Shown here piece by piece: positions 9,423 through 38,289 of a stretch of 38,289 bases of DNA; positions within the stretch are counted from its first letter, which is position 1; each line of letters begins with the position of its first letter. The notes beneath the pieces are model-generated. The model made no database searches. It was not told where the DNA came from and worked only from the letters and a program-made list of their open reading frames with translations. This DNA is from Thermoanaerobaculia bacterium (GTDB lineage Bacteria > Acidobacteriota > Thermoanaerobaculia > Multivoradales > JAHZIX01). The translations under genes and the position numbers were made by a program. The stretch spans positions 1-38,289 of the forward strand of contig JALXFE010000523.1 in the NCBI GenBank assembly GCA_027069135.1, written 5' to 3'.

Positions 9423-10160
9423 ATGACACCGGCCCCAACATTGTCCGCACTGGCTGCCGGTGTCGGCGTTTTCGCAGCTCTCGCCGGGCCCCTGGCGGCC
9501 CACCTCCAGCTCTTATCCCCATACACCGCCTTCCGGACCTTCGCGTTGGGGATCTTCACCGGCAGCCTCCTCGGGGTCGCCTTGGGCCTTTGGGCCCTGC
9601 TTCGCACCTGGAATCAGCCGGACGCCGTCGGGCGCCCCTGGGCCTGGGCGGGCCTGCTGACCGGAGCCGTGCTCCTCTTGGCCATGGCTTTAGCGGGCGC
9701 CTCCGCCGCCAAGGTCCCGCCGATCCACGACATCACGACCAACCCGAAAAACCCACCGGAATTTGTCCAAGCTCTCGAAGCCGAAGACAACCGCGGCCGG
9801 AATCTCACCTACCCCCACGGGGACTCCAAGACCCCGAAGCGGCAGCAGGAGGCGTATCCGGATCTGAAACCCATCGGATATCCAGCCGCTCCCGAGGAAG
9901 CCTTCGCAAAGGCTCGAGACACCGCTGAGGCCCTCGGCTGGGCGATTCTTGCCTTGGATCCGGCCGCCGGACGCCTGGAAGCCACTCAAACCTCTCGCCT
10001 CTTCCGATTCGTGGACGACATCGTCATCCGCGTGCGGAAAGACGAGGACGGTAGCGGATCGATCGTAGATCTTCGTTCGACCTCCCGCGACGGCATCAGC
10101 GACCTCGGCGCCAACGCTCGCCGCATCCGGCAGTTCCGAGAAGCCCTGATCGGGAATTGA
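9423..10160 (+). CDS. DUF1499 family membrane protein
   Basis: 245 residues from the ATG at 9423. An alternative ATG at 9411 abuts the GGAGG site with no spacing, so I prefer 9423. Three hydrophobic segments (about 5-25, 36-60 and 75-98) anchor the protein. Residues 100-245 are the DUF1499 domain, recognised by P-P-I-H-D-I-T-T-N and P-x-L-K-P-I followed by an [ED]-A-T-x-x-S-R-L-F-R-F-x-D-D-x-x-I-R-V core and the R-S-x-S-R-x-G-x-x-D-x-G ending. The family is widespread, mostly beside membrane or stress genes, and has no settled function. It is 26 bases upstream of the radical SAM gene and probably shares its transcript. Confidence 0.85.
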   Translation: MTPAPTLSALAAGVGVFAALAGPLAAHLQLLSPYTAFRTFALGIFTGSLLGVALGLWALLRTWNQPDAVGRPWAWAGLLTGAVLLLAMALAGASAAKVPPIHDITTNPKNPPEFVQALEAEDNRGRNLTYPHGDSKTPKRQQEAYPDLKPIGYPAAPEEAFAKARDTAEALGWAILALDPAAGRLEATQTSRLFRFVDDIVIRVRKDEDGSGSIVDLRSTSRDGISDLGANARRIRQFREALIGN

Positions 10161-10186
10161 GGACCGCACCGAAAGGACCTCTCTTG

Positions 10187-11476
10187 ATGGAAACCCAGAC
10201 CGTGGACACGATCTCCTCAGAGCACGGGGCCCACACCCAAGAGTTCCGCCCGTCCCTCGTATCCTGGAACTTGACCCGGCGTTGCAATCTGCGTTGCCCC
10301 CACTGCTATCTCTCCGCCGGCAAGAAGGCGGAGCAGGAGTTGACGACGGAAGAATGCCTCGCCCTCATCGACGAGATGAAGGCCCTGGGGACTGAGATGG
10401 TCATCCTCACCGGCGGCGAGCCTCTGCTGCGCAAGGACATCTTCGACATCGCCACCCGCTGTGCGGAGCAAGGCATGTGGGTGGTGATGGGCACCAACGG
10501 CGTCTTGATCGACGACCGCGTGGCCCAAAGAATGGTGGACTGCGGGATCAAGGGAGTCGGAATCAGCATTGATTCCGTGGATCCGGAGAAACACAACAGC
10601 TTCCGTGGTGGCCCCAACTCCTGGGAGCACTCCGTGCGGGCTCTCAAGATCTGCCGCCAGCATGGGCTGGAGGTCCTCGTCCAATCCACCGTCATGGCCA
10701 GCAACTATGAAGAGGTGCCCAAGCTCATCGACTTTGCCAAGGAGATCGGCGCCTGGTCCTTCAACCTCTATTTCCTCGTCCAGACCGGTCGCGGCCAGCT
10801 GATGAACGACCTCTCCGCCGAACAGACGGAGTCCATGCTCACCCACCTTGTGGAACACCAGGAGGCCTACCGTCCCATGCTGGTGCGCTCCAAATGCGCC
10901 CCGCATTTCAAGCGCCTGGCCTATGAGCGGGGTTTGGGCGGTCTCGAGAGCGGCGGCTGCATGGCCGGCACGCACTACTGCCGCATCACCCCGGACGGCG
11001 ACGTCACCCCCTGCCCCTACATGGACCTCTCCGCCGGCAACGTCCGGGACTCGAGCTTCACGGAGATCTGGAATCACTCGGACCTCTTCTCAGGGCTCCG
11101 GGACTTAGAACGCCTGGAGGGCCGCTGCGGCGCCTGCGAGTTCAACGAGCTCTGCGGCGGTTGCCGTTGCCGCGCCTACGCCGCCTTCGAAAACCCCCTC
11201 CAGGAAGACCCGGCCTGCACTTACCAACCGACCGGCCAACCCCTGGACGCCCACATCGTCCTCTGGGACCCCCAGGCCCGCGCGCGCCTGGACCGCATCC
11301 CCATCGCCTTCATCCGCTCCAAAGTCCAAAGCGGCCTCGAAGCCTACGCCCGCTCCAACTCCATCCCCTTGATCACCGACGAGATCATGCAACAAGGCCT
11401 CCAAGGCGACGCCCGTCCCAAAGCCTTCGACAAGCTGCCGAGTTTCTTGAAGCGACCACCGTCGGTTCAGGATTGA
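10187..11476 (+). CDS. Radical SAM/SPASM protein with C-terminal PCP_red-like domain
   Basis: 429 residues from the ATG at 10187, chosen over a TTG ten codons upstream. The radical SAM core carries the cluster motif C33-x3-C37-x2-C40, then I-L-T-G-G-E-P-L and I-S-I-D-S. A SPASM-type region follows with extra cysteines (G-G-C-M-A, C-P-Y-M-D, C-G-A-C-E-F-N-E-L-C-G-G-C-R-C), able to bind further 4Fe-4S clusters. The layout resembles haem-pathway enzymes of the NirJ/AhbC/AhbD group. From Trp360 comes a PCP_red-like domain (A-R-A-R-L-D-R-I-P, E-A-Y-A-R, I-T-D-E-I-M), a module known from the C-terminus of BchB/ChlB. The haem genes 3 kb downstream make a tetrapyrrole substrate plausible; peptide modification is the alternative. 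The last codons have a diverged second copy at 11971-12019. Confidence 0.85.
   Translation: METQTVDTISSEHGAHTQEFRPSLVSWNLTRRCNLRCPHCYLSAGKKAEQELTTEECLALIDEMKALGTEMVILTGGEPLLRKDIFDIATRCAEQGMWVVMGTNGVLIDDRVAQRMVDCGIKGVGISIDSVDPEKHNSFRGGPNSWEHSVRALKICRQHGLEVLVQSTVMASNYEEVPKLIDFAKEIGAWSFNLYFLVQTGRGQLMNDLSAEQTESMLTHLVEHQEAYRPMLVRSKCAPHFKRLAYERGLGGLESGGCMAGTHYCRITPDGDVTPCPYMDLSAGNVRDSSFTEIWNHSDLFSGLRDLERLEGRCGACEFNELCGGCRCRAYAAFENPLQEDPACTYQPTGQPLDAHIVLWDPQARARLDRIPIAFIRSKVQSGLEAYARSNSIPLITDEIMQQGLQGDARPKAFDKLPSFLKRPPSVQD
11413..11457 (+). repeat. Direct repeat 1, copy 1 (tail of radical SAM gene)
   Basis: These 45 bases match 11971-12015 at 40 positions without gaps. Here they encode the in-frame tail R-P-K-A-F-D-K-L-P-S-F-L-K-R-P of the radical SAM protein. 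Confidence 0.85.
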
Positions 11477-14343: not shown

Positions 14344-15024
14344 ATGCCGGATCGCACTCTCAATCACTTCACCTTCTTGCGCTTCTCCCAAGCCCATGCG
14401 GAGCTTTCGACCCAGGCCCGCCAGGAGATCCACACGGACCTGCTCGCAGCCCTGCGCAAAGCCGCGGAACGGGTCGAGATCTACCAGGTTTTTCCGGCCC
14501 GGGGAGACGTCGACGTGCTCGTGTGGTGCGCCTGTAGCGGGGACGGTCCCGAAGCCTTGGCAAGCTTCCTGACGGCCTTCGCCCAGGCCATAAATCCTTT
14601 TCGCCGATACCTCAACGCCACCGATGCTCTCTTTGGCCTCACCCGACCTTCCCCCTACGTTCCCGGCAAGAAACCTTCCGGGATCAATCCCTTGGAAGGA
14701 AACCGCCAAAGGTATTTGACGGTCTACCCCTTCGTGAAGACCTCCGGGTGGTACGCCATGAGTCGAGAAGCTCGCCAGGGCATGATGAACGAGCACATCA
14801 AGATCGGCCGCGAGTACCAAGAGGTGGACCAGATGTTGCTCTACTCCTTCGGATTACAAGACCAGGAATTCGTGGTGGTCTACGAGATGGAAGACATCAC
14901 CGGGTACCTCCAATTGGTCAACGAGCTGCGCAGCTGCGAAGGACGACGGTTCACCGAGCGGGATACCCCGATCACCACCGGTATCTACCATCCGGCGGAG
15001 GAGACCCTTGCCCTGTGGCGATAG
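14344..15024 (+). CDS. hemQ: Coproheme decarboxylase HemQ (chlorite dismutase family)
   Basis: 226 residues, matching the chlorite-dismutase fold. Landmarks are Y128-P-F-V-K, equivalent to the catalytic Tyr of HemQ, and proximal His151 in M-N-E-H-I-K-I-G-R-E-Y. HemQ oxidatively decarboxylates two propionates of Fe-coproporphyrin III to give haem b, using peroxide. The hemH and hemG genes immediately downstream identify it as HemQ rather than a chlorite-detoxifying enzyme. The stop TAG lies inside the hemH start region (overlap 15015-15024), so translation is coupled. A GGAGC stretch precedes the ATG. Confidence 0.92.
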   Translation: MPDRTLNHFTFLRFSQAHAELSTQARQEIHTDLLAALRKAAERVEIYQVFPARGDVDVLVWCACSGDGPEALASFLTAFAQAINPFRRYLNATDALFGLTRPSPYVPGKKPSGINPLEGNRQRYLTVYPFVKTSGWYAMSREARQGMMNEHIKIGREYQEVDQMLLYSFGLQDQEFVVVYEMEDITGYLQLVNELRSCEGRRFTERDTPITTGIYHPAEETLALWR

Positions 15025-15974
15025 TGGAATCGTCGAAAGCAGCGGCGACCGGCGACGAGCCCGAGTGGGCGGTCTTGCTCATGGCCTACGGTAGCCCGGA
15101 ACGGCTGGAAGATATCGAGCCGTTCCTCTTGGATATCCGGGGTGGTCGCCCGACATCGGCGCAGCTGGTCGAGGAGGTCCGGGAGCGCTACGCCCGGATC
15201 GGTGGCAAGTCTCCGCTCCTGGAGATCACTCGTGCCCAGGCCGGCGCCTTGGAATCCCGCCTCAACCGGGAGGAGCGGCGCTTCCGTGTCTACGTGGGAA
15301 TGCGGCATTGGCATCCGTACATCGGCGCCGCCGTTCAGAAGCTCGCGAACGACGGGTTGAGGCGGGTCGTCGCCCTCTGCCTGGCTCCCCATTACTCGAG
15401 GATGAGTATCGGTGCCTACTTCCGCCAGGCCACGGCAGCCTTCGAGGCGGCCGGCTCGAGGTTCGAGGTTCGGTGGGTGGAGAATTGGGGTGATCGCACG
15501 AGCTTCCTCAAGGCTCTCGCGGCCAATGTTCGGCGGGGCCTTGAGAAATTCCCTGCCGAGGAACGCTCGGCGGTGCGGGTGATCTTCACCGCGCACAGTC
15601 TGCCCGCCAAGATCATGACCGACGGGGACCCCTACGATGCCCAATTGCGGGCCACGGCAGGGGCGGTGGCCGAGCGGATCCCCGGAATCGCCTGGGAATT
15701 CTGCTACCAAAGCGCCGGAGCGGGCGGCATCAAGTGGTTGGGGCCGCAGATCGAAGAACGGGTTGCGGAGCTCGCCCAAGCCGGCTACCGCCACCTGCTG
15801 GTCGCCCCGGTAGGCTTCGTGGCGGATCATGTGGAAATTCTCTTCGATCTCGACATCGAAGCTCGCGATTCCGCTGCCGCGGCCGGGGCCCGGTTGGAAC
15901 GCATCGACTCGATGAACGATTCCCCGCCGTTCATCGAGACCTTGGCGGAAATCGTCCTCGAGGCCGTGGCCTGA
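15015..15974 (+). CDS. hemH: Ferrochelatase, coproporphyrin type
   Basis: 319 residues from GTG 15015, which sits 11 bases after GGAGGAG; a second GTG at 15024 is too far from it. Metal-insertion residues His194 (F-T-A-H-S-L-P) and Glu274 (D-H-V-E-I-L-F-D) are present. Tyr25 in L-L-M-A-Y-G-S-P corresponds to the Tyr of B. subtilis CpfC (M-A-Y-G-T-P), whereas protoporphyrin ferrochelatases usually read N-L-G-G-P there. I therefore expect insertion of Fe(II) into coproporphyrin III. No iron-sulfur cysteine tail is seen. It overlaps hemQ by ten bases and is followed by hemG after one base. Confidence 0.93.
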   Translation: MAIVESSKAAATGDEPEWAVLLMAYGSPERLEDIEPFLLDIRGGRPTSAQLVEEVRERYARIGGKSPLLEITRAQAGALESRLNREERRFRVYVGMRHWHPYIGAAVQKLANDGLRRVVALCLAPHYSRMSIGAYFRQATAAFEAAGSRFEVRWVENWGDRTSFLKALAANVRRGLEKFPAEERSAVRVIFTAHSLPAKIMTDGDPYDAQLRATAGAVAERIPGIAWEFCYQSAGAGGIKWLGPQIEERVAELAQAGYRHLLVAPVGFVADHVEILFDLDIEARDSAAAAGARLERIDSMNDSPPFIETLAEIVLEAVA

Positions 15975-15975
15975 G

Positions 15976-17367
15976 ATGAGAAACGTTCTCATTCTAGGCG
16001 GGGGTCTGACGGGGCTCTCGACGGCCTATTACCTGCAGAAGCGAGCCCGGGAAGGGGGACTCGACCTCGGGATTTCGGTGCTCGAAGCGTCTTCCCGTTG
16101 GGGGGGAAAGATCGCTTCCGACCAGATGGGCGGATTCCTGGTCGAGGGTGGGCCGGATTCCTTTATCACCCGCAAGCCTTGGGCCCTGGAGTTAGTCCGG
16201 GAGCTCGGTCTGGGTGACCAGATCTGTGAGACCTCTCCCGAGAACGGACGGGTTTTCCTCCTTAGGGACGGTGCCCCGGTGGAGCTTCCGGCCGGGATGG
16301 CTTTCGTGGTCCCGACCGCCGAGGAGCCCTTTCTGCGCTCCGGCGTGCTGTCGGAGGAAGGCAAGCGGCGGGTCTTGGCGGAAGTGGACGTGCCCCGTCG
16401 GGATCGAGGCGGTGACGAGAGTGTCGCGGATTTCGTGACCCGCCGCTTTGGCAAAGAGGCTCTGGAGCGCCTCGGCCAACCCCTCATGGCAGGAATCCAC
16501 GCGGCGGACCCGAAACGCCTCAGCCTGGCGGCAGCCTTTCCGGAAATGGAACGGATCGAGGCCCACTTCGGCAGCCTCATTCGAGGCCTTCGCGAGGTCT
16601 GGGGCGGCTCCGGTCTCAAAGCCACGAAGAATTCCTCTCGGGTCAGCCTCGCCGGAGGGATCGGTCAATTGATCGACACGCTGATCTCCCGTCTGGATCC
16701 CAAATCCCTCCATCTCGGCCGGCCGGCGGTGAGCTTGGAAAGGGGTCGCGAGGGGTTCCGGGTCCGGGACAGCCAAGGGCAGAGCTGGAACGCCGATGCC
16801 GTGGTGCTCGCCCTGCCGACTTTCGCCGCCGCCGATCTCGTAGGATCCGTCCGCCCCGCCCTCGCTTCCCCCTTGGGCGAGATTCGCTATGTCTCGACGG
16901 CTACCCTCTCCTTGGGATTCTCCGCCGCGGACGTGGAGCACCCCCTCAGCGGATTGGGAATCGTCTTCCCGAAAGTCGAGGGGCGCAATCTCCAGGCCTG
17001 CACCTGGAGCTCCTCGAAATTTCCCGACCGGGCACCGTTTGACCAGGTGCTCGTCCGTGCGTTCCTCGGTGGCACCGGGGCGGAGCATCTGCTCGACCGG
17101 GAGGACGACGATCTCACCGCCCTCGCCCTGGACGAACTGACCCCGCTCCTGGGTCTTCACGCCGCTCCCACCTTGACCCGCCTCTATCGATGGCCCCGAG
17201 GGATCCCCCAAATGGAGATCGGTCACCGCGACCGGGTGGCAGCCATCGAGGCGGCGAGCGGCGACGGTCTCTTCGTCGCAGGCACGGCCTACCGGGGCAT
17301 CGGTCTTCCGGACGCCATCCACTCTGCCCAGACGACGGTGGCCGATTTGCTCGCGGAAATCGGATAG
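15976..17367 (+). CDS. hemG: Coproporphyrinogen/protoporphyrinogen III oxidase, HemY type
   Basis: 463 residues. The FAD-binding Rossmann motif G-G-G-L-T-G-L-S-T-A-Y-Y starts at residue 8, then E-A-S-S-R-W-G-G-K-I and F-L-V-E-G-G-P-D-S-F. The end carries the second FAD contact L-F-V-A-G-T-A-Y-R-G-I-G-L-P-D-A-I-H-S-A. This is the oxygen-dependent, FAD-containing HemY/CgoX family that aromatises the porphyrinogen ring. With HemQ and HemH it fits the coproporphyrin-dependent route, where it acts on coproporphyrinogen III before iron insertion. Oxygen dependence agrees with the oxidase operon downstream. The ATG follows the hemH stop by one base. Confidence 0.93.
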   Translation: MRNVLILGGGLTGLSTAYYLQKRAREGGLDLGISVLEASSRWGGKIASDQMGGFLVEGGPDSFITRKPWALELVRELGLGDQICETSPENGRVFLLRDGAPVELPAGMAFVVPTAEEPFLRSGVLSEEGKRRVLAEVDVPRRDRGGDESVADFVTRRFGKEALERLGQPLMAGIHAADPKRLSLAAAFPEMERIEAHFGSLIRGLREVWGGSGLKATKNSSRVSLAGGIGQLIDTLISRLDPKSLHLGRPAVSLERGREGFRVRDSQGQSWNADAVVLALPTFAAADLVGSVRPALASPLGEIRYVSTATLSLGFSAADVEHPLSGLGIVFPKVEGRNLQACTWSSSKFPDRAPFDQVLVRAFLGGTGAEHLLDREDDDLTALALDELTPLLGLHAAPTLTRLYRWPRGIPQMEIGHRDRVAAIEAASGDGLFVAGTAYRGIGLPDAIHSAQTTVADLLAEIG

Positions 17368-27727: not shown

Positions 27728-28144
27728 TTACATTCCGAACTTTCCTCTCGCTTCTTCAAGAACGGCTTCATTGATGATCGGGCAGCCCTGGCTCTCGGCA
27801 TAGTGCTCGATCCCTTGTTTGGCCATCGGGCGCACGAAATCCGGAATGTTCTCGAGTCGTGAGAGGGCCTCGCGAGTCCAACGAGGGCCTTCTTCAGAAG
27901 GGGCTGCGCCCTCCATTTGGGGCAGAGCTCCGGAGAACGGGCATTTGGCGGCGGAATCTGCTCCTCCCGGACCGATCTTCACGCCCAGGGATTGCACCAT
28001 CTGCGTTTCCGAAGGGTTGGTCAGCATGGCGATCTGTGTGAAGCACTCCGGACACTCGAACATTGCGCTGAGGGTGCCTTGTTGGGGAGATTCGGTCTTC
28101 TCCAACTTCATGGGCTCGTCACAGCTGACACAGAGGAATTTCAT
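27728..28144 (-). CDS. Zinc-ribbon protein with PCP_red-like domain
   Basis: 138 residues. Cys5, Cys8, Cys31 and Cys34 (C-V-S-C and C-P-E-C) form a rubredoxin/zinc-ribbon knuckle; a further Cys68 lies in the linker. From Trp89 to the end is a PCP_red-like domain: W-T-R-E-A-L-S-R-L-x-x-I-P-x-F-V-R, E-H-Y-A-E-x-x-G, I-N-E-A-V-L-E-E-A. In BchB/ChlB this domain closes over the protochlorophyllide site. As no nitrogenase-like reductase genes are here, binding of another tetrapyrrole or a redox partner is inferred. The ATG overlaps the stop of the Mrp-type ATPase gene (28141-28144), a strong functional link. Confidence 0.85.
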   Translation of the reverse strand: MKFLCVSCDEPMKLEKTESPQQGTLSAMFECPECFTQIAMLTNPSETQMVQSLGVKIGPGGADSAAKCPFSGALPQMEGAAPSEEGPRWTREALSRLENIPDFVRPMAKQGIEHYAESQGCPIINEAVLEEARGKFGM

Positions 28145-29010
28145 TCTTGGGCCTCCAGGGCTTGCAATAGGTTCTCGGCCACAACGTGGATTGCTTCGAC
28201 GGCCTTATGAGCTTCATCCCGCCGCTCCGGCCAACCGCTGTCACACAGTGAAGCTAGCTCGGGATCAAAAGGTACTCGGCCGAGAAGGGGTAGGTCGAGC
28301 TTCGTTCCGGAGCTTGGGAACAGAGGCTTGATCTCCCCGCAGTCTCGGCAAAAATAGCCCGCCATATTCTCTACGTAGCCTAGCATTTGAGCCGATGTCC
28401 CAGCGAGGGCAGAAACCGAGCGCGCGACCACGCTCCGGGAGATATCAGAGGGCACGGTCACCAGGACGAAGCTCACTCCCGAAGGAAGAAAGTCGGCGTA
28501 TTGGACGGTGCGCTCCGCCCCGGGGGGAAGATCGAAGAGGAGGAAGTCCAGGGAGCCCCAGGCCATCGAGGAGAGAAGCTGTCCAAGAACGGCGAATTCC
28601 TTGGTGGAGCGCCAGACATGCTCATCGCCATGGGAAACCGTCGAGAAAGAAACCGGCTGGGAGGCTGGCACGAGGCTGCCCATCGAGACGACGCCGATAC
28701 CATCCTGCCGGCGAGGGACCGCAAGCCCCTGAGGGCTCGGAATCCAGGGGTGGGCGTCCAATCCCGCGAGGTGAGCCTGGCAGGGACCGTTGAAATCTGC
28801 ATCGAGAATCGCCACGGAGGCCCCCCGGCCCTTGAGGGCCTGGGCGAGGCCCATCGTGACGGTACTCTTTCCGACACCGCCTTTACCGGACCCCACGGCG
28901 ACCAGATTCCGTACTCCGGACAAGGCCTCCCGAACGGCCTCTTGCTGAGCTTCTACCTGGGCGATGACGTCGGAACCGCCATCGCCTTCGATATCGAAAT
29001 AGGATTTCAT
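28141..29010 (-). CDS. Mrp/NBP35-type P-loop ATPase
   Basis: 289 residues from ATG 29010, where homology-like sequence begins (M-K-S-Y-F-D-I-E-G-D-G-G); an ATG nine codons upstream is the alternative. The deviant Walker A motif G-S-G-K-G-G-V-G-K-S-T is at 40-50 and Walker B at L-F-D160-L-P-P-G. Cys221 and Cys224 (Y-F-C-R-D-C-G) match the CxxC with which Mrp dimers bridge a 4Fe-4S cluster. Such proteins act as iron-sulfur carriers or scaffolds. The 4-base overlap with the PCP_red gene suggests it delivers a cluster to, or works with, that protein. Confidence 0.9.
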   Translation of the reverse strand: MKSYFDIEGDGGSDVIAQVEAQQEAVREALSGVRNLVAVGSGKGGVGKSTVTMGLAQALKGRGASVAILDADFNGPCQAHLAGLDAHPWIPSPQGLAVPRRQDGIGVVSMGSLVPASQPVSFSTVSHGDEHVWRSTKEFAVLGQLLSSMAWGSLDFLLFDLPPGAERTVQYADFLPSGVSFVLVTVPSDISRSVVARSVSALAGTSAQMLGYVENMAGYFCRDCGEIKPLFPSSGTKLDLPLLGRVPFDPELASLCDSGWPERRDEAHKAVEAIHVVAENLLQALEAQE

Positions 29011-29163
29011 GATGGAACCGCTTCGCTCGAGAATCATACTGCGCCTGCCTTCTCAGGCACAGCCCCCATACATCGTTGCCCCCACGACTCCGGGGAGGAA
29101 ATCGATACCCCGAGGTTCTTTGGGATACGATGAGGTCTTCACCCCCTCGCTAGGCGATCCGGA

Positions 29164-32136
29164 TTGAACCAGCCCGCGCCCCAGGAAAAGGCCTCGTCAA
29201 AGGTCGGCTCCCGGTACGCAGGCTCAAGAGGAACCGTGGATAGAACTAAGCTTCTCCAGCGATGGCCTCGATGGCATTCATGGCTCCGCCAGGGTGCGGT
29301 GGAGTTCTTGCTGCTTCTGAGCGTCGGACCCTTTCTCCTTCAATTCCTGGCCGGTCTGGAGATGTCCCTTTCCTCCCCGGAGGGCCCTCGAGGGGCCTTG
29401 GCGAGCCTCATCCTGGGCTCTCTCTTGGCGGTGGAGGTGTTGATTGTCGCCATCTCCGTCGTCCTGGGCCGCAGCTCCCCCACCTTTCGCCGGGCCTCGG
29501 CGGCTTTCGCCACCTATGCGCTCTTCGTCGCCGTGCTCCGTCTCGCCTCGATCTTCGAGCTTCTGCAGCGGGGCTCTACCGACGGCAGTCTGGAACAGAT
29601 TCTCGAAGTGGGCCGGTTCGGCTCTGCGGGCATACTCTTCTGGGCACTGTGGGCGACGCGGCAACGTCGATCGGTAGAGCTGCGCAACACCCTGCCCGTG
29701 GCCCTGGGGCTAGGGATTGGAGCCGTCTCCTTGGCTCTCCTGGGCATGCCCTTTGCCGACTCCGGGGACCTAACCTTGGCTCGGCCCTGGCAGATTCTGC
29801 CGCTCGTGGTGCTCCTCGCTTGCTTGGTGCCGCTGACAGGCACTCTTTCAGACCTCAGTCGCGACCGGCTTTCTTCTCGCCTGAGCCTTTGCCTCCTGCC
29901 GGAGATTGCGGCCCAATTACATTTCGCGTTGGGGTCCCGTGCCACCTTCGACCATCACTTCAGCGCGTCACTCCTTCTTCAGCTTCTCGCGGAATCCGTC
30001 ATTCTCCTGGGCCTCGCAAGAAACGGGGTCGCTCGATTCCATCAAGGCGCCGCCGCCGTCCGTCGCCTCGAGGAAAGCCTGAGCCGTAGCACCCAGGACT
30101 TGGCGGAAAGTCGTCAGCTATTGGTTGCGGAGAGCGAAAGCCGGTCAACGGCGGAACGAACTCTCCGCTTTCTCAGGACTGCGATCGAAACGACTCAGCT
30201 GGGAGTCGTGGTCGCCGACCTGGATGGAAAGATCCTGTACGCGAACCCTGGCCAGGGCCATATGCATGGAATCGAGGCCGAAAACCTTGTCGGCCAGCCC
30301 GCAAGCCTGCTCGGCCCGCTGGAGCTCCGAGCTCCTTCCGGCCACAAATACGAACACAAGGCGGCGGGCTTCCAAAGGGAGAGCATCAATCAGCACAAAG
30401 ACGGCTCCCGATTCCCGGTCCTTCTGACTTCGGATCTCGTCCGCAACGAGGAAGGTTCCCCGGTCGCCCGGGTCACGATCGCCGAAGATATCAGAGACCG
30501 AAAACGCAATGAACGAGAGCTGCTTCAGCGGGGAGCCGTTCTCGGTGCCATCAGCACCGCCGCCGCACGGCTTCTGCAGGGGCGAGATTGGGAGACGGGT
30601 ATTGAGGAGTCTCTCGCCCTGTTGGGGGCCACCCTCGAGGTGCGCCGCGTCTTCGCCTTCGAGGAGGACCCCAAGGATCCGAAGGGCCGTTCTCTTAACC
30701 TGCGATTCGGCTGGGGCATCTCTCGCCACAGCTCCGAGGACCATGGGGATCTTGGGGTGGTGCGTTTTCAGGGCAGCGCAGAGCTTGCCCTGCTGGAAGC
30801 CTTGCGATCCGGAGAAGGCCAATGGGGCTGCGTAGAAGACTTCGGCGACCGCCTCCCGGTGCCATTCCAACAGCTTGCCGGAGCTTCCATTCTTCTGCAG
30901 CCGGTTCTCGTACGGGACCGCTGGTGGGGAATCGTAGGGGTTTCCGATACCCAACCCCGAGATTGGTCTCTCGCCGAGGTAGAGGGACTCCGGACGGCAG
31001 CGGAGCTCGTAGGCGCTGCCGTCTTTCGCAAGGACAGCGAGCGCTCCCTACGAGAAAGTGAGCGGCGCTTCCGAAATTTCTTCGAGAGCTCGACGGATCT
31101 GATCCAGTCGGTTCGTTCCGATGGCCGGTTTTCCTACGTCAACCGAGCCTGGAAAGAGACTCTCGGTTACAGCCAAGAGGAAGTGGCCGAGCTGCAGATT
31201 CTGGATATCGTCGCCGAAGAGCATCGAAGGGAGTTTCAGAAGACTTTCAACCGGATGCTCGCCGGGGAGAACTTCGATCGCATTGAAACCGTTTTCATCT
31301 CCCATCACGGCCGCCATGTCGTGGTGGAAGGAAGCACCAGCACCGAGCACTCCTCATCGCAAGGCGTCTCGGTTCAGGGGATCTTTCGAGATATTTCTCA
31401 ACGCCGCCGCATGGAGAGAATGAAAGGCGAGTTCATCGCCATCGTCAGCCACGAGTTGCGGACTCCCCTGACCTCCATCCACGCAGCCCTGCGCCTTCTT
31501 CGGGCGAAGCATTTGGAAGGCCTTTCCACCTCCGGGCAGCAACTGGTGGAGCTTGCACATCAGAATAGCCGGCGTCTGGGCCGCCTCATCGACGATGTGA
31601 TCGATGTGGAGCGGTTGGACTCCGGGAGGCTCACGTTTCACCTTCAAACCTACCAGCTCACCGCGCTGATCTCCCAGGCCGTAGAAGAGACCCGAGTGCT
31701 CGCCGACCGCCTCGGCGTCGGGCTCGTCCAGCGGCCCATCGTCGCCCCGTTTCAAGCCCGCCTCGACGGGGGACGACTCGTCCAGGTGCTGAAGAATCTG
31801 CTCACCAACGCCATCAAATTCTCGCCCGAGAACGGCCTTGTCGAAGTCGTAGCGTCCCGAGTCGACGGTGACCTACGGGTCGAGGTCCGGGATCAAGGCC
31901 CGGGGATTCCCCGGGAGTTCCGCGAAAAGGTCTTCGAGCGCTTCTTTCAAGTCGACCCGTCGGAAACCCGCAGCCAGGACGGCACCGGCCTCGGATTGAA
32001 TATTGCGCAGGCCATCATCGAGCGCCTCGGTGGGAAGATCGGATTCGACTGCCCTCCGGAGGGGGGCACGGTGTTTTACTTTCACCTGCCGTCAGCAGGG
32101 GTCTCGACGAAGGCTACTCCGGAAGGATCAGGCTGA
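29164..32136 (+). CDS. Membrane-bound PAS-GAF-PAS sensor histidine kinase
   Basis: 990 residues from TTG 29164; GTG 29236 (after AAGAGG) is another possible start. Residues about 45-285 hold seven or eight membrane helices. A coiled coil leads to PAS 1 (about 336-455), a GAF domain (about 458-620) and PAS 2 (about 635-750). The catalytic core has the H-box S-H763-E-L-R-T-P-L-T-S, N-box N-L-L-T-N-A-I-K-F-S near 878, G1 D-Q-G-P-G-I-P near 910 and G2 G-T-G-L-G-L-N-I near 940, so it should be active. The input signal is unknown. It overlaps tail-to-tail by 23 bases with the response-regulator gene, its likely partner. Confidence 0.92.
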   Translation: MNQPAPQEKASSKVGSRYAGSRGTVDRTKLLQRWPRWHSWLRQGAVEFLLLLSVGPFLLQFLAGLEMSLSSPEGPRGALASLILGSLLAVEVLIVAISVVLGRSSPTFRRASAAFATYALFVAVLRLASIFELLQRGSTDGSLEQILEVGRFGSAGILFWALWATRQRRSVELRNTLPVALGLGIGAVSLALLGMPFADSGDLTLARPWQILPLVVLLACLVPLTGTLSDLSRDRLSSRLSLCLLPEIAAQLHFALGSRATFDHHFSASLLLQLLAESVILLGLARNGVARFHQGAAAVRRLEESLSRSTQDLAESRQLLVAESESRSTAERTLRFLRTAIETTQLGVVVADLDGKILYANPGQGHMHGIEAENLVGQPASLLGPLELRAPSGHKYEHKAAGFQRESINQHKDGSRFPVLLTSDLVRNEEGSPVARVTIAEDIRDRKRNERELLQRGAVLGAISTAAARLLQGRDWETGIEESLALLGATLEVRRVFAFEEDPKDPKGRSLNLRFGWGISRHSSEDHGDLGVVRFQGSAELALLEALRSGEGQWGCVEDFGDRLPVPFQQLAGASILLQPVLVRDRWWGIVGVSDTQPRDWSLAEVEGLRTAAELVGAAVFRKDSERSLRESERRFRNFFESSTDLIQSVRSDGRFSYVNRAWKETLGYSQEEVAELQILDIVAEEHRREFQKTFNRMLAGENFDRIETVFISHHGRHVVVEGSTSTEHSSSQGVSVQGIFRDISQRRRMERMKGEFIAIVSHELRTPLTSIHAALRLLRAKHLEGLSTSGQQLVELAHQNSRRLGRLIDDVIDVERLDSGRLTFHLQTYQLTALISQAVEETRVLADRLGVGLVQRPIVAPFQARLDGGRLVQVLKNLLTNAIKFSPENGLVEVVASRVDGDLRVEVRDQGPGIPREFREKVFERFFQVDPSETRSQDGTGLGLNIAQAIIERLGGKIGFDCPPEGGTVFYFHLPSAGVSTKATPEGSG

Positions 32137-33607
32137 GCTGCGCCAGGACCTGCTCTAGATCCTGGACGGGCTCCATCAGGTGGCGCCAACGAGGTAGGTC
32201 TTGGAAGACCTCGAGGAGGAACTCTTGGTCCCCCGGGGGTGAAGCCACGAGCACCGAGCTCCCGTTATCGATCAAACTCTCGGCGAGATCTCTCCACACC
32301 TCCGAGTCCAACTCATCGGGAAAGAGCACGCCCCCCATGGGACTCGGTTCCTGCAAGGGTAGTCGTAGCTGGGATACCAGCGCAAAGGTAAGAATAAAGC
32401 TGCCCGCGGAGTGGGAGAGGTGAAGGGTACCGCCCCGTCGCAAGAAGATCTCCTGAGGCCGGTCTCCTACGCCGTCGACGAGAAGCACCTCAGGAACGGA
32501 GAGCAACAGGGCCGCGAGTGAATCCCAGGAGGAGTCCGCGGCCCAACAGGTGATGCGGACCCCGGAGGCGTCATCCTCGAGAGAAAAGCCACGAAAGACC
32601 GCGGTCTGGAGGAACTCCCGGATGGCGGCGTCCAAGCTGTCTGAAAGCTCGACCGTCGACTCGTCTCCGGTCACGGAGCCGACGGCCCCCATCTTGTGCA
32701 ACGAGGCGACGATAAGCCGAATTCTATTGGGCGCGACCGGAAACGTCTCGAAGAGCTCCGCAAGGGAGGAAGGGTGGGCTTCGAGAAGCTGGAAGAGCTC
32801 CAACATCGGCTGCTCTTTCAGGTCCTCCGGTATTTTCGGAATCTCGCCTCGACCTTCTAAGACCTGCTCCTCGGGAGGCAGGTACTCCTCGACCTGCCCG
32901 AGGCTGTCCTTCAAGTAGGCGGCCTCCAACAAGATCGGCTGCACTCTTGCCGGCTCCGGCCAATCTGAGGCCGGCGGGCCAGGGGAATCCTCGTCTTCAA
33001 GGCCGAAGCGAAACCTGCCGGTCGTCAACTCGACCATCGACAAGACAGCTTCCCGGCCTTCGAGGGAGCCGAAGCGAGCGAGAGTCAACCGGCCCGAAAA
33101 GAGCTCCACGCGTCCGGAGTGCTCTCCCGCCCGTAGATGCAAGACGCCGGTCTTGGCTCCTTGGTCCAGGCTCTGGATGAGCTCGACGAAAGATTGAACC
33201 TCGAAGGTACCCTCGAGCCCGGCACCCGCCGCGGGCCTCCGAGCGATGATCCCCTCCAGACGAGCCACGAGCTCTTCGGGGTCAAAGGGCTTCTTGAGGT
33301 AGTCGTCCGCCCCCTGGCGCAGACCTCGAACCCGATGCTCGACTTCACCGAGAGCAGAGAGCATCACCACGGGAATCTGAGAGGTACCCACTTCTCGACG
33401 CAGGGTCTCCAGCAGTTCCCAACCGGAAATCTCGGGCATCATCACATCGAGAATCACAGCGTCGAAATGCTCTTCCCGGGCCAACCCCATGACGGTCTTC
33501 GGGTCACCCGTGGAGATCACATCATGGCCATAGCCCTCGAGAGTCAGCTGAATCACCTTCAGCACACCTGGATCGTCGTCGACTACTAAAATTCTCGACA
33601 ACCTCAC
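32114..33607 (-). CDS. Response regulator with REC and DUF4388 domains
   Basis: 497 residues from GTG 33607; TTG 33601 has better spacing to GGGAG and is a close alternative. The receiver domain (1-120) has the acidic pocket D10-D11-D12, phosphoacceptor Asp54 (I-L-D-V-M-M-P) and Lys106 (L-K-K-P-F). Residues about 132-210 are a DUF4388/PATAN-type domain (V-E-L-I-Q-S-L, K-T-G-V-L-H-L, G-R-V-E-L-F-S-G-R-L). Residues 340-497 look like a divergent MglA-like alpha/beta domain without a visible P-loop. No DNA-binding domain is seen, so output is probably by protein contact. The facing histidine kinase is the likely partner. Confidence 0.88.
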   Translation of the reverse strand: MRLSRILVVDDDPGVLKVIQLTLEGYGHDVISTGDPKTVMGLAREEHFDAVILDVMMPEISGWELLETLRREVGTSQIPVVMLSALGEVEHRVRGLRQGADDYLKKPFDPEELVARLEGIIARRPAAGAGLEGTFEVQSFVELIQSLDQGAKTGVLHLRAGEHSGRVELFSGRLTLARFGSLEGREAVLSMVELTTGRFRFGLEDEDSPGPPASDWPEPARVQPILLEAAYLKDSLGQVEEYLPPEEQVLEGRGEIPKIPEDLKEQPMLELFQLLEAHPSSLAELFETFPVAPNRIRLIVASLHKMGAVGSVTGDESTVELSDSLDAAIREFLQTAVFRGFSLEDDASGVRITCWAADSSWDSLAALLLSVPEVLLVDGVGDRPQEIFLRRGGTLHLSHSAGSFILTFALVSQLRLPLQEPSPMGGVLFPDELDSEVWRDLAESLIDNGSSVLVASPPGDQEFLLEVFQDLPRWRHLMEPVQDLEQVLAQLSLILPE

Positions 33608-33653: not shown

Positions 33654-34511
33654 CTAGGCCGGTGTCGCCTGCGCTCCCACGCGATAGTACGTCCGGGAAG
33701 GCCGGAAAGCCAAGGAGGCCAGATCGATTGCGGCAACCTCCTCCTCGGACATTCTTGGCAACCGAAGGGGGCCAGAGGTCCGACCTTCGACGAATTTCGC
33801 CAGCAACCCCAGGAAGAGTGTGCTTCGACCGGGGTCTCGGCAACCCCAACCTGAGATATCGAAGGCTGTCTCCGGTGGGTTCGCTCTTCGGCCAAGGACA
33901 AAGGCCTCCAATTGCTCCGGGCTGCCGATACCCCACCCTTCTAGACCCGAACCTCGACCTTCGAGGGTCTTGAGGGTTCTCTCCCAGGCAACCCCGGGAG
34001 GCACTTTCAAGAGCCCGGAGTCCCTCACTTCTTGAAGAGTGATGGGAAATACCAGGCCTTCGGGAATGTTCTGAGGCGACCCTTGCTCACGAAGAAAGTC
34101 CGTGTAGGAGATTTCGCGCCGATAGCCGCTGGCCTCGAAGAATTCGAGCAGGTCCGCTCGATCCGCAGGGATCTCAGCAATCAAACGCGGTGGACCGAGC
34201 ACCGCCAGCTTCTGGCTGAGGGAGGTCAACAGATGTCTCCCGTGGCCCCGGCGCTGGTAGTCCCGGCGAACTCCGACCCGATGGATGAGAACCTCCTCCG
34301 GTCGCTTGGTCCCCATCATCACACCGATCGGCTCTTCCCCCTCTCGGGCCACCATGGCGTTGCTGACCCAAACGCTCTCTTCCTGAATCTCCGAACGCAG
34401 AGCGTCTACGGTCAGCCGTGGCTGGCCCGGGAAATGGACGTCGTAGCATTCATTGACGGCCCGGCAGATCAGCGGCATGTCGTCGGGACGACAGAATCGG
34501 TAGGCGACCAT
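33654..34511 (-). CDS. GNAT-family acetyltransferase
   Basis: 285 residues. The N-terminal half is a GNAT domain with the acetyl-CoA loop R-R-D-Y-Q-R-R-G-H-G-R-H-L-L near residues 80-95, preceded by the strand V-L-I-H-R-V-G-V. The C-terminal half (about 150-285) has no motif I recognise, although a second, degenerate GNAT-like half is common in proteins of this length. The substrate is unknown. It lies between the universal stress protein gene (62 bases upstream) and the response regulator (46 bases downstream) on the same strand, so it may share their transcript. No clear ribosome site precedes the ATG. Confidence 0.82.
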   Translation of the reverse strand: MVAYRFCRPDDMPLICRAVNECYDVHFPGQPRLTVDALRSEIQEESVWVSNAMVAREGEEPIGVMMGTKRPEEVLIHRVGVRRDYQRRGHGRHLLTSLSQKLAVLGPPRLIAEIPADRADLLEFFEASGYRREISYTDFLREQGSPQNIPEGLVFPITLQEVRDSGLLKVPPGVAWERTLKTLEGRGSGLEGWGIGSPEQLEAFVLGRRANPPETAFDISGWGCRDPGRSTLFLGLLAKFVEGRTSGPLRLPRMSEEEVAAIDLASLAFRPSRTYYRVGAQATPA

Positions 34512-34573: not shown

Positions 34574-36655
34574 TCAGCCGTCCGCCTGCTTGGCGTTGAG
34601 CTCTTTGCGCTTTTTTTCTAGGGCCGACATGAAGCCGACCTCGTTGAGAGCCGGGCGCGGGGTGTCGCCGGAACGAGGGGAAGCCTTGTGGTCCTCGAGG
34701 GTGCCGTCGCTGTCGGCGGCTTTCGCTTCCTGGTCGTATTGGCCAAGCATCTCGGCCATCGCCTTCTTGCCGTCCTCGATCCCGTCTTCCACCATGGCGA
34801 GGTCGATACCCGCAAGGCCTCGCTCTTGCGCCAGCTCCTCGATCCGGCTCTGGGTGCGATCTCGCATATATCCTGAGGGTACGCGCAAGACCCGCTCGAT
34901 GGCCTCTTCGGTCCAATCCCAACGAGAGATCAGTGGGTTGTTCTTGGCATCGCGGGCAAGGATCTTGAGGTCCGAATCCTCCTCCGGCTCGGCCGCTGCC
35001 TCTGGGGCGGTACCGCTCCCGGAGACGACGATCTTCTCCGATGGGTCGTGTTTGGACGGGGTGTAGAGAATCCCGGTTTCCTCTTCGACGAAGACGCTGA
35101 CGAATTCCAGGGAGATCGGATCGATTTTCTTCACCCGGGCAGATTTCTCGACCCGCGCCTTTGCCCGACGGCGTTGATATTTGTCTTGGATCGACCGAAG
35201 GGCTCCCTTGGCGTCCTGGGTCCAACGCAGACGACGGCCATCGTAGGTCACCTCTTCTTCGACACCGCCCTCCTGGCTGGCGATCCTCTCGATCATCTCC
35301 TGAGACACCGTCTCGAAGTCGCCGGAGCCGCACACCGCGCATTGCACAGGATTCGATACCCGGGCCGCCACACCGCAGCTCTTGCAGATCGCCACCGGTT
35401 CCTTGCGCGCTTTGTCCAAGGCCAGGGCTTCCGCCAGCTTCGAGGTCGTGTGAGCGGTTTGCTTGGGCATGAAGCGCTCCATCGCCTCGGTCACCAGATC
35501 GGTGGTGACGACACTATGCCCCTGTTCGAGAGCCAGCCGTAGAATGGCGGTGCGGGCGATTCCTTTGACCCCCTCGGGCACTCGAACCATGCGCGACTCG
35601 GCCTCTTCGGTCCAGTGGATGCTCTCCGCCGCCTTGAGGTCAATCTCCGGTGTCACGGCCGCCGTCGTCAAGAGGACATCGCAGGGGCTCAGACGCAGGA
35701 GGTTGTCGGTGTTGCTGCCCAGACCGTCTTCTTCCTCGGCACTGTGGACTCCCACCCGGCCCACCACCAGAACCCAGGGCTCGGTCTTCCGCGCATGGTC
35801 CAGGATCTTCTGGAAGGCTTTTCCGTCGAGAAGAGTCTTGGTGACCTCGATCCCGGCTTCCCGGGCCATCGTCTCGGCGACATTTAGGTGGCTCTGGTAG
35901 ATCTCCGCCAGACCCGTGTCGATGATCTCTTCGTGGAGCTGGTTTTGCTCTTCGAAGCGGAAGATCTTGGCGGCCTTGTCCGTCAATACGTCGACGATGC
36001 CCTTGAAGACCGCGTAATGGAGATAGGGGTCATAGACGCCGATGACCTCGAGCTTCTTGTCGAAGCGCTTGGCGAGTTCCACCGCCGTCATGAGGGCGCC
36101 GAAGGACTCGGGGCTACCGTCGACGCCGACCAGAATGGTGTCGCGTTCGGTCTCTCCCTTCTTGGGTAGGTTCTTGACCACCCAGACGTCCCGATCGACC
36201 TCGCGGCTCACTCTCTGGCAAACCGAACCGATCTGGCTATCCTTGGTCCGCCCGATCCCCACGGCTCCCAGAACCACCAAGTCATAGTCGCTATCGGCGA
36301 TGTCCTTGATGATCTCGGTCGAATGCTTGCCATCCATCATCCTGCGTTCGCAGGAGAGGCCTTGCTCCTGACACAGATCGTCCATGGCCTTGAGGTAGCA
36401 GTCGGAGATCAGCTCCAACCCCATGGTGATCAGGCTGTCGTGAATCTTGCGCTGGCGCTGCAGCTCACCCTCGACCAGGTACTCCTCGGGCAAGGTGAAC
36501 TCCATCTGCTTGAACCGATAGTCGTGCATTTTCGCCGCATATACATGGCAGCCCACCAATTTCGATTCGTAGCTCTTTCCCAACTGCAGGGCGCAATCGA
36601 TGGCCCGGTTGGAATGGGGCGAGTTGTCTACCGGAACGTAGATCGTTTCGTACAT
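34574..36655 (-). CDS. Tandem universal stress protein with three PCP_red-like domains and a zinc ribbon
   Basis: 693 residues. Residues 1-163 and 170-335 are two UspA domains (Y-V-P-V-D-N-S at the first strand; V-V-L-G-A-V-G-I-G-R and V-G-V-D-G-S-P-E-S). Then come PCP_red-like domain 1 (about 348-396, W-T-E-E-A-E-S-R-M-V-R-V-P), a zinc ribbon with Cys424, Cys427, Cys439 and Cys442, domain 2 (about 478-525, W-T-Q-D-A) and domain 3 (about 581-632, W-T-E-E-A-I-E-R-V-L-R-V-P). Domain 2 is the most diverged. UspA domains bind nucleotides or small ligands in stress; the attached domains suggest a tetrapyrrole or redox sensor. The gene follows the cytochrome c gene by 48 bases, likely one operon. 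No biochemical role is established to my knowledge. Confidence 0.85.
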   Translation of the reverse strand: MYETIYVPVDNSPHSNRAIDCALQLGKSYESKLVGCHVYAAKMHDYRFKQMEFTLPEEYLVEGELQRQRKIHDSLITMGLELISDCYLKAMDDLCQEQGLSCERRMMDGKHSTEIIKDIADSDYDLVVLGAVGIGRTKDSQIGSVCQRVSREVDRDVWVVKNLPKKGETERDTILVGVDGSPESFGALMTAVELAKRFDKKLEVIGVYDPYLHYAVFKGIVDVLTDKAAKIFRFEEQNQLHEEIIDTGLAEIYQSHLNVAETMAREAGIEVTKTLLDGKAFQKILDHARKTEPWVLVVGRVGVHSAEEEDGLGSNTDNLLRLSPCDVLLTTAAVTPEIDLKAAESIHWTEEAESRMVRVPEGVKGIARTAILRLALEQGHSVVTTDLVTEAMERFMPKQTAHTTSKLAEALALDKARKEPVAICKSCGVAARVSNPVQCAVCGSGDFETVSQEMIERIASQEGGVEEEVTYDGRRLRWTQDAKGALRSIQDKYQRRRAKARVEKSARVKKIDPISLEFVSVFVEEETGILYTPSKHDPSEKIVVSGSGTAPEAAAEPEEDSDLKILARDAKNNPLISRWDWTEEAIERVLRVPSGYMRDRTQSRIEELAQERGLAGIDLAMVEDGIEDGKKAMAEMLGQYDQEAKAADSDGTLEDHKASPRSGDTPRPALNEVGFMSALEKKRKELNAKQADG

Positions 36656-36703: not shown

Positions 36704-38289
36704 TCAAGAAGCAGCCGCTTGGTCCGTTTGTTGGTTCTTCTTTTTTCTGCGGCGCACCAGACCGATGATCAGCAACTCCAGGGCGAGGACACCGAGTCCG
36801 GCCTTGGCCATCGGCCCAAAAGGGGAAGGCGTCTCCATCGGCTCGAGGTAGAGGTCGTACCAGGAAGTCAATCCTCGTTTGTTGCCCCGCTCGCGGTTGA
36901 AGCCGTCCCACACCGTCACGGCGAGGGGTATGAACTGCCCTTCTTCGAAGGAAATGCCCGAACCCTTTCGCTTCCGTTTGAAGACCACCGACCACTCGCC
37001 GTCCTGGTAGGTGGCGCTGAGCTCCGGCGGCTTCGAATCCGATTCCGTAATGCTGGCGCTGCCTCGCGCCTGGTAGAGCTTTCCCTTCGAGGTCGTCAGA
37101 TCCGCGAACCATAGATCCACCGGATTCTCCAGATCTCCGAAGATGAAGTAGGGCTTGCGGATCCCTTGAGGCAACGCCGCGGGAAACTGAAGGGCCACGG
37201 CGTCCGAAAACTCGCTCTTCACACCCGCGGAAGACGCCGCACCGCCGTCGTCATCCTCTCCCCAGAAATCACCCTCATCGCCGGTGGCTTCCTCTTCTCC
37301 CCAGAATCCGGAGCCATCGTCCGCGGGCTCTTCCTCGGCCTCCTCGCCCCAGAAGCTGCCCTCATCCTCGCCGGAAGCGGCTTCGTCGTCGCCCCAAAAG
37401 CTGCCGTCCCCATCGCCTTCATCGGCAGCACCGCCGGAGAAGAGCTGCGGATTGTCGTCTTCCCAACGCGGAACCTCGAGATCAGGGCCGTTGGCACCGG
37501 AGGCCTCGGCTCGCATGTCGTTCCAGCGCACGAGAAACGCGATTTCACTACGATCGTAAACCGCTTGCACCGTCACTGCCGAGGACGGTGGATAGAAATT
37601 CCGGCCCGGTTCCATGACCTGCCCGATGATCGGAAGCATGGCCTCCGGAGCGTCGGCGAAAAGCTCCCGTCCCCGCTCCAGGTCCATGGGTCCAGAGGCT
37701 GGCACCGCCCGTGCCAGGTTGGCGTAAGGCGGAGCGTCCACGTTGCCGGACAGCGATCGGATGTAGTCGACGATGCTCCAGATGACCTCCGGCTCAAGTG
37801 AGCCATAGAAACCCGGCATCGGGGTACCGAAAAAGCCTCCGCTCATGGTGCGGTAGATGTCTTCACGCGAGCCACCGGCGCGGAAAGCCCAGGGCTTCGT
37901 GAGATCCGCGACCTTGATGTAGTTTCCCCAATCGTCTACCTGCTGCGGTGCTGTGGTCCCATCCCCCCGACCCAAAAGTCCGTGGCAACGGACACAACCG
38001 TTCTCGACATAGGCCGCTTTCCCGGCCTCCACCGACTCCGACGTGTAGTTGGGAGCTGCCGGAATGGGGAAGGAGTCCAGATAGGCCTCCGGGTCCTCGA
38101 AGGAGTCGGAGAAGGTCTTGAGGAAATGAACCAGGCTCGTCAACTGGGTCTCCGAAAAAATTGAAAAGGCCGGCATCGCCGAATAGGGAAGGCCCAACCG
38201 GATGGACCTCTTGAGGTCCTCGTCGGTGGGCAGGGCACCCGTGGGCGTGCTACGGATCTTGTACTTTCCCTTGGTGAAATCGCGCGGAG
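36704..38289 (-). CDS. Membrane-anchored cytochrome c with ethylbenzene-dehydrogenase-like haem domain, 5' end outside window
   Basis: The frame is open to the right edge; an apparent TTG at 38197 is internal, since the bases before it continue with R-S-T-P-T-G-A-L-P-T-D-E-D-L, a conserved cytochrome stretch. About 528 residues are visible. One haem c motif, C-V-R-C-H (37982-37996), with M-P-G-F as likely axial Met, forms a cytochrome c domain; an earlier one ends at A-M-P-A-F. Next is an ethylbenzene-dehydrogenase-like haem b domain, split by an acidic insert with four F-W-G repeats (37232-37438). A C-terminal helix (G-L-G-V-L-A-L-E-L-L-I-I-G-L-V) and basic tail anchor it in the membrane. 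It probably transfers electrons in the periplasm, perhaps to the oxidase. Confidence 0.85.
   Translation of the reverse strand, partial: PRDFTKGKYKIRSTPTGALPTDEDLKRSIRLGLPYSAMPAFSIFSETQLTSLVHFLKTFSDSFEDPEAYLDSFPIPAAPNYTSESVEAGKAAYVENGCVRCHGLLGRGDGTTAPQQVDDWGNYIKVADLTKPWAFRAGGSREDIYRTMSGGFFGTPMPGFYGSLEPEVIWSIVDYIRSLSGNVDAPPYANLARAVPASGPMDLERGRELFADAPEAMLPIIGQVMEPGRNFYPPSSAVTVQAVYDRSEIAFLVRWNDMRAEASGANGPDLEVPRWEDDNPQLFSGGAADEGDGDGSFWGDDEAASGEDEGSFWGEEAEEEPADDGSGFWGEEEATGDEGDFWGEDDDGGAASSAGVKSEFSDAVALQFPAALPQGIRKPYFIFGDLENPVDLWFADLTTSKGKLYQARGSASITESDSKPPELSATYQDGEWSVVFKRKRKGSGISFEEGQFIPLAVTVWDGFNRERGNKRGLTSWYDLYLEPMETPSPFGPMAKAGLGVLALELLIIGLVRRRKKKNQQTDQAAAS

Follow-up and report, generated by a model that had tools for sequence, protein, structure and literature searches.

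Tandem universal stress proteins (Usps) such as TTHA0350 (3ab8), Rv2623 (3cis) and UspE (5cb0) are the closest described relatives of the N-terminal half of the protein reported here. Its C-terminal half carries PCP_red (PF08369), a domain otherwise found at the end of BchB and BchZ, solved as the stand-alone protein Asr4154 (2l09) and, in a chlorophototrophy pre-screen, one of the most prevalent Pfams (PMC12815261). Our search of the open-access literature, as far as its text was available, returned nothing on what PCP_red does in BchB or on PCP_red together with Usp. Two further families bear on the locus. Radical-SAM enzymes of the NirJ2/AhbD type act on porphyrin side chains (PMC7242693). 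The OR-N oxidases are, in the accessible text of the papers describing them, predicted terminal oxidases of nitrite oxidisers, encoded downstream of alternative complex III in Nitrospirales (PMC12342949) and called uncharacterised in Nitrospinota (PMC10839748). The same portions of these two papers are silent on any accessory PCP_red set for OR-N oxidases, and we found no open-access paper naming such a set.

The window analysed here is a stretch of 38,289 nucleotides from a Thermoanaerobaculia bacterium (contig JALXFE010000523.1). It encodes a protein, Usp-PCP, which resembles the tandem Usps over residues 1–336 (Z 24–28, with the ATP motif in domain 1) and differs from them by having two long helical inserts, both conserved, and a C-terminal half of 350 residues made of PCP_red and rubredoxin-like parts. 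Two other proteins of the window end in PCP_red. Unlike BchB (DPOR) and BchZ (COR), they have no nitrogenase-like domain: PCP_red is reused in Usp, zinc-ribbon and radical-SAM proteins. The genes concerned are the following:

10157–11476, forward strand: radical-SAM/SPASM enzyme with a C-terminal PCP_red (rSAM-PCP); nearest NCBIfam models NirJ2 and AhbD

27728–28144, reverse strand: 138-residue protein made of a zinc ribbon (C5, C8, C31, C34), a CPF linker (C68-P69-F70) and PCP_red (ZnR-PCP); from Pfam, alignment and model

28141–29037, reverse strand: Mrp/ApbC-type P-loop ATPase with the Cys pair C230/C233; from Pfam and conserved motif

33654–34511, reverse strand: GNAT-family acetyltransferase (Pfam), next downstream of Usp-PCP and kept in the operon of Acidobacteriota relatives

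34574–36655, reverse strand: Usp-Usp-PCP_red-rubredoxin-like knuckles-PCP_red-PCP_red protein (Usp-PCP), 693 residues, ATG start; from ORF, Pfam, profile match and AF2 model m124182c2085e

36704–38287, reverse strand: c-type cytochrome/EB_dh haem protein (Pfam), cut by the contig end, with its 5' part on contig C133

Domains and Fold of Usp-PCP

The initial annotation had read the gene as UspA-UspA-PCP-zinc ribbon-PCP-PCP in one chain of 693 residues. The ORF proved exact, and Usp and PCP_red were recovered by Pfam and profile comparison. Usp (PF00582) was matched over two stretches (1.7e-40) and PCP_red over three at E<=1 (1.9e-19, above the gathering score), copy 1 corresponding to residues 348–391. 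Copies 1 and 3 each exceeded the family cut-off singly in a whole-genome search (39.5 and 33.4 bits). Copy 2 was weaker in the window protein, and a profile of 16 orthologues matched 2l09 at this place (475–521, E=1.2e-4). Both Pfam domains were present in all 48 full-length copies scanned. The Pfam scores, the match to a solved structure and this 48-member conservation rule out that the C-terminal half consists of chance or low-complexity helices, and the doubt raised in the initial annotation, that these parts might be unrelated helices, was removed by the sequence matches to PCP_red.

The part labelled "zinc ribbon" required a finer description. A Cys knuckle is indeed present; it is a CxxCG...CxxCG pair (C424, C427, C439, C442) that is present without change in about 94 orthologues. 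Of 48 orthologues scanned, Pfam called it rubredoxin-like (PF21349) in 23 and HypA-like in 12. Given these calls, the metal may be zinc or iron. Apart from the four cysteines, the near-invariant residues in the same set of about 94 sequences were H37, H44, H72, H213, H241, H256 and H380. The G-2x-G-9x-G-S/T motif was kept in the first Usp domain (G130, G133, G143), and as written it applies to that domain only, the second having one extra residue between the glycines. ATP binding by the protein would be in keeping with this motif.

The AF2 model (mean pLDDT 79.5) showed a tandem Usp fold with the long conserved helical inserts. Its best matches, Rv2623 (Z 27.9, rmsd 3.5, 280 aligned) and TTHA0350 with ATP (Z 27.4, rmsd 3.0, 257 aligned), were tied, and as comparisons of the whole model they were filled by the Usp part, so that the C-terminal half was barely tested by fold. 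Pfam found no output domain of the DNA-binding, kinase or cyclase kind. The variable tail bore a CP motif of the CPF type in 32 of 89 Usp-PCP sequences and is without it in the window protein. In Acidobacteriota (L068, L074–L080 and other loci) the tail was followed by a conserved terminal peptide of the LNEVGxMSxLExKR type, which reads LNEVGFMSALEKKR in the window and is perhaps a docking tag.

The Partner Proteins

The genome to which the window belongs (7.17 Mb, 97% complete) contained four PCP_red matches in a whole-genome search, all on the window contig and two of them in Usp-PCP. Usp-PCP, ZnR-PCP and rSAM-PCP are thus all its PCP_red proteins; none is BchB, and Usp-PCP is not part of a protochlorophyllide reductase (BchL/N/B). 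A remnant of phototrophy is ruled out, these three being the sole bearers of the domain in the genome. The PCP_red proteins recurred together in relatives, and in the distant ZnR and rSAM proteins the domain was confirmed by Pfam.

The ZnR-PCP gene lies directly after the ATPase gene (27728–29037 for the pair). The modelled PCP_red of its product superposed on that of BchB at 1.1 Å over 54 columns (2kru) and at 1.1 Å over 49 (2ynm). The linker between zinc ribbon and PCP_red was variable in sequence and length with the exception of its CPF motif, found in 21 of 21 aligned proteins and in 47 of 48 measurable linkers against 0.16 expected when each linker was shuffled, a count that reflects conservation among related orthologues and not independent events. 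Residues 60–82, which include the motif, were predicted to be disordered (pLDDT <50). Flexible loops with a CP motif are known to bind haem(III) transiently (PMC10377097), and a Cys-Pro in a predicted disordered segment makes ZnR-PCP, as a new lead, a candidate haem regulatory (CP) motif protein. The shortened ZnR protein of Sulfidibacter has no PCP_red and retains CPF.

The radical-SAM protein shares the CxxxCxxC and SPASM cysteines with the haem enzymes AhbD, NirJ and NirJ2. It differs from them by its PCP_red tail and by its scores of 347 bits to NirJ2 and 305 to AhbD, both below the curated NCBIfam equivalog cut-offs of 500. Downstream of its gene, positions 14344–17367 (forward strand) encode ChdC (chlorite-dismutase family), ferrochelatase and a HemG/HemY-type flavoprotein.

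Gene Neighbourhood

A gap of 48 bases to a preceding cytochrome gene had been noted initially and holds, the cytochrome ORF having its stop at 36704. The gene had been called a membrane cytochrome. A cytochrome it is, not simply of that kind: it combines c-type haem domains with EB_dh (b-haem) and closes the series of cytochrome genes in an oxidase operon. The last 127 bases of the window are the first 127 of contig C133, which bears the upstream operon genes in the right order. Joined by this overlap, the oxidase operon appears complete in the genome. Its ActA- and ActB-like genes are on C133. Elsewhere in the window, the segment 17654–25871 (forward strand) encodes NrfD-like and ActD proteins of alternative complex III and, after them, COX1, COX3 and COX2 of the caa3 type. 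Between the GNAT and Mrp genes, at 29164–33607, lie a histidine-kinase-like ORF (forward) and a DUF4388 response regulator (reverse), outside the conserved operon.

The neighbourhood was conserved, a point on which the initial annotation had let its reading depend. A frequent run in relatives was ActA-, ActB- and ActE-like, CydA-like, two c-type cytochromes, EB_dh cytochrome, Usp-PCP, GNAT, Mrp, ZnR-PCP and rSAM-PCP. The oxidase and cytochrome genes directly preceded Usp-PCP in most Acidobacteriota loci, and outside this phylum Usp-PCP, rSAM-PCP, Mrp and ZnR-PCP tended to cluster close to oxidase genes. In Rokubacteria and Poribacteria, Usp-PCP was beside other PCP_red genes, with a haem-copper oxidase block or more between it and the CydA-like gene.

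The CydA-like subunit itself was matched by PF01654 (3.5e-27). The equivalents of the E. coli haem ligands were kept at H19 in 67 of 71 sequences, at E99 in 71 of 71 and at H186 in 72 of 72, the H19 equivalent being Lys in the Sulfidibacter group. As in the accessible descriptions of OR-N oxidases of Nitrospirales (PMC12342949) and Nitrospinota (PMC10839748), a CydA-type subunit with its ligand residues kept comes directly after act-like genes. By this gene order, applied as in PMC12342949, it would be the subunit of an OR-N-type (OR-N or OR-N5) cytochrome bd-like oxidase.

Distribution and Co-Occurrence with the Oxidase

When 84,980 species genomes were scanned with a 16-member alignment, 248 Usp-PCP loci in several phyla were obtained, a spread that rules out a lineage oddity or an assembly fusion. 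The best 80 of the 248 belonged to Acidobacteriota/Thermoanaerobaculia/Holophagales, Rokubacteria/Methylomirabilota, Poribacteria, Planctomycetota, Hydrogenedentota and others (titles of metagenome-assembled genomes being sometimes wrong) and included an isolate, Sulfidibacter corallicola M133.

Within the order (59 genomes), Usp-PCP and the CydA-like orthologue were both present in 27 genomes and both absent from 32, with no exception. Both states occurred inside six families, indicating repeated joint gain or loss of the two genes. These changes within families are a stronger argument than the Fisher values, which make no correction for relatedness. One genome (G044, 86% complete) had other PCP_red proteins and neither Usp-PCP nor the CydA-like subunit. 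Among 297 genomes of the phylum, the CydA-like gene was found in 30, all with PCP_red. These make up 30 of the 34 PCP_red genomes, the remaining four having no CydA-like gene. Three of the four are of a single genus, and the one checked (G147) encodes BchB and BchZ, each ending in a PCP_red-type domain; in the fourth (G084), PCP_red lies in a 91-residue ORF for which no partner was recognised within 16 kb. In 81 genomes of Methylomirabilota, PCP_red and CydA-like were found together in 51, PCP_red alone in 5, CydA-like alone in 1 and neither in 24, the sample consisting of draft metagenome-assembled genomes, drafts which include the five without a detected CydA-like gene.

In 30 Usp-PCP genomes picked for breadth, the CydA-like subunit and the EB_dh cytochrome were each present in 29. 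For ActB, those of the Poribacteria type and some others gave no match or a short ferredoxin-like one only. Since some genomes with CydA-like and EB_dh gave no convincing ActB match, these two and not alternative complex III are the constant partner, and that complex is disfavoured as constant client. ChdC was found in 2 of the 59 genomes of the order, namely the one studied here and its sister, both of which also have the set; the other 57 are without ChdC, set or no set.

Discussion

From the domain make-up, the common PCP_red domain, the gene linkage, the co-occurrence with the oxidase and the conserved metal and CPF motifs, all directly observed, we propose that Usp-PCP belongs to a set of proteins serving the maturation or delivery of haem for the OR-N-type oxidase and its EB_dh/c-type cytochrome partners, a reading drawn from sequence comparison to which we give an even chance. 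In this model, a dedicated cytoplasmic set would make, modify or hand over a haem-type tetrapyrrole to the oxidase. rSAM-PCP would modify a porphyrin side chain. ZnR-PCP, by its CPF motif, would act as a small carrier that binds haem through a thiolate. Fe-S clusters, or the drive for the hand-over, would come from the Mrp ATPase, and Usp-PCP would be an ATP-dependent scaffold whose PCP_red domains hold or pass the tetrapyrrole for insertion. The haem or tetrapyrrole ligand, the bound ATP, the order of the steps and the oxidase as client are what we infer here. All PCP_red contexts with an assignable partner in our data (BchB, BchZ, AhbD/NirJ-like radical SAM and the Usp-PCP set) are tetrapyrrole-linked or candidates for it. 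Counting against the proposal are the five Methylomirabilota drafts in which PCP_red came with no detected CydA-like gene, and the lack of CPF in the tail of the window's Usp-PCP.

The initial annotation had suggested a sensor or an assembly factor for cytochromes. The second half of this suggestion agrees with the oxidase operon, the further PCP_red proteins and Mrp; nothing was found that favours the first. A regulator, in which the Usp domains would read ATP/ADP or a nucleotide signal, the knuckle and PCP_red would read redox state or haem, and the whole would tune the expression or activity of the oxidase, is nonetheless the strongest of the rivals, although unlikely. The tandem Usp fold shared with UspE and Rv2623, the rubredoxin-like knuckles and the place of the gene after the oxidase operon would suit it, and co-occurrence and synteny fit maturation and regulation alike and cannot tell them apart. 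An assembly factor is favoured over a sensor because the protein has no output domain and is constantly accompanied by a radical-SAM enzyme of the porphyrin type and an ATPase of the metal- or Fe-S-carrier type, a fixed association unexpected for a sensor.

Alternatively, Usp-PCP could belong to the oxidase complex as a stable cytoplasmic subunit. Its exact co-occurrence with the CydA-like gene would be explained, as would its position in most Acidobacteriota loci, directly behind the genes for the oxidase and the cytochromes; the separation of the two genes in Rokubacteria and Poribacteria speaks against it, and we consider this improbable. A little more doubtful still is an alternative route to ordinary haem b, by AhbD-like decarboxylation of coproheme, in which rSAM-PCP and its partners would not be special to the oxidase. 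NirJ2 and AhbD are the nearest models, AhbD can replace ChdC (PMC7242693), and in the window the rSAM-PCP gene is upstream of those for ChdC, ferrochelatase and the HemG/HemY-type protein. However, the two genomes with ChdC keep it besides the set, and the 57 others do without it with or without the set. A general role in haem b is disfavoured because the set does not follow the need for it, and the same distribution in 59 genomes disfavours the set as a ChdC replacement. The weakest candidate, maturation of iron-sulphur or other metal centres with PCP_red as a protein-protein docking domain only, could invoke the Cys pair of the ATPase, the zinc-ribbon or rubredoxin-like knuckles of two members and a weak HypA-like score, and is improbable too, in view of the haem-ligand residues kept by the constant CydA-like partner and of the Fe-S subunit ActB not being convincingly matched in some genomes.

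Returning to the haem maturation set, a more specific form of it is a tentative one, which we hold to be possible and rather less than probable: the cofactor of the OR-N oxidase would be a haem type from a novel branch, with rSAM-PCP modifying the porphyrin and the CPF carrier, Mrp and the Usp-PCP scaffold delivering it. A genetic test is possible, because a cultured species, Sulfidibacter corallicola, has Usp-PCP, Mrp, the shortened zinc-ribbon-CPF partner and the oxidase. Since PF08369 also marks genomes bearing the oxidase set, a phototrophy pre-screen that uses it may pull in non-phototrophs. The conserved accessory set gives a handle on the needs of OR-N oxidases, with relatives occurring in many other bacteria. 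If the novel-branch reading is true, PCP_red would serve the handling of tetrapyrroles in general and would not mark chlorophyll synthesis.
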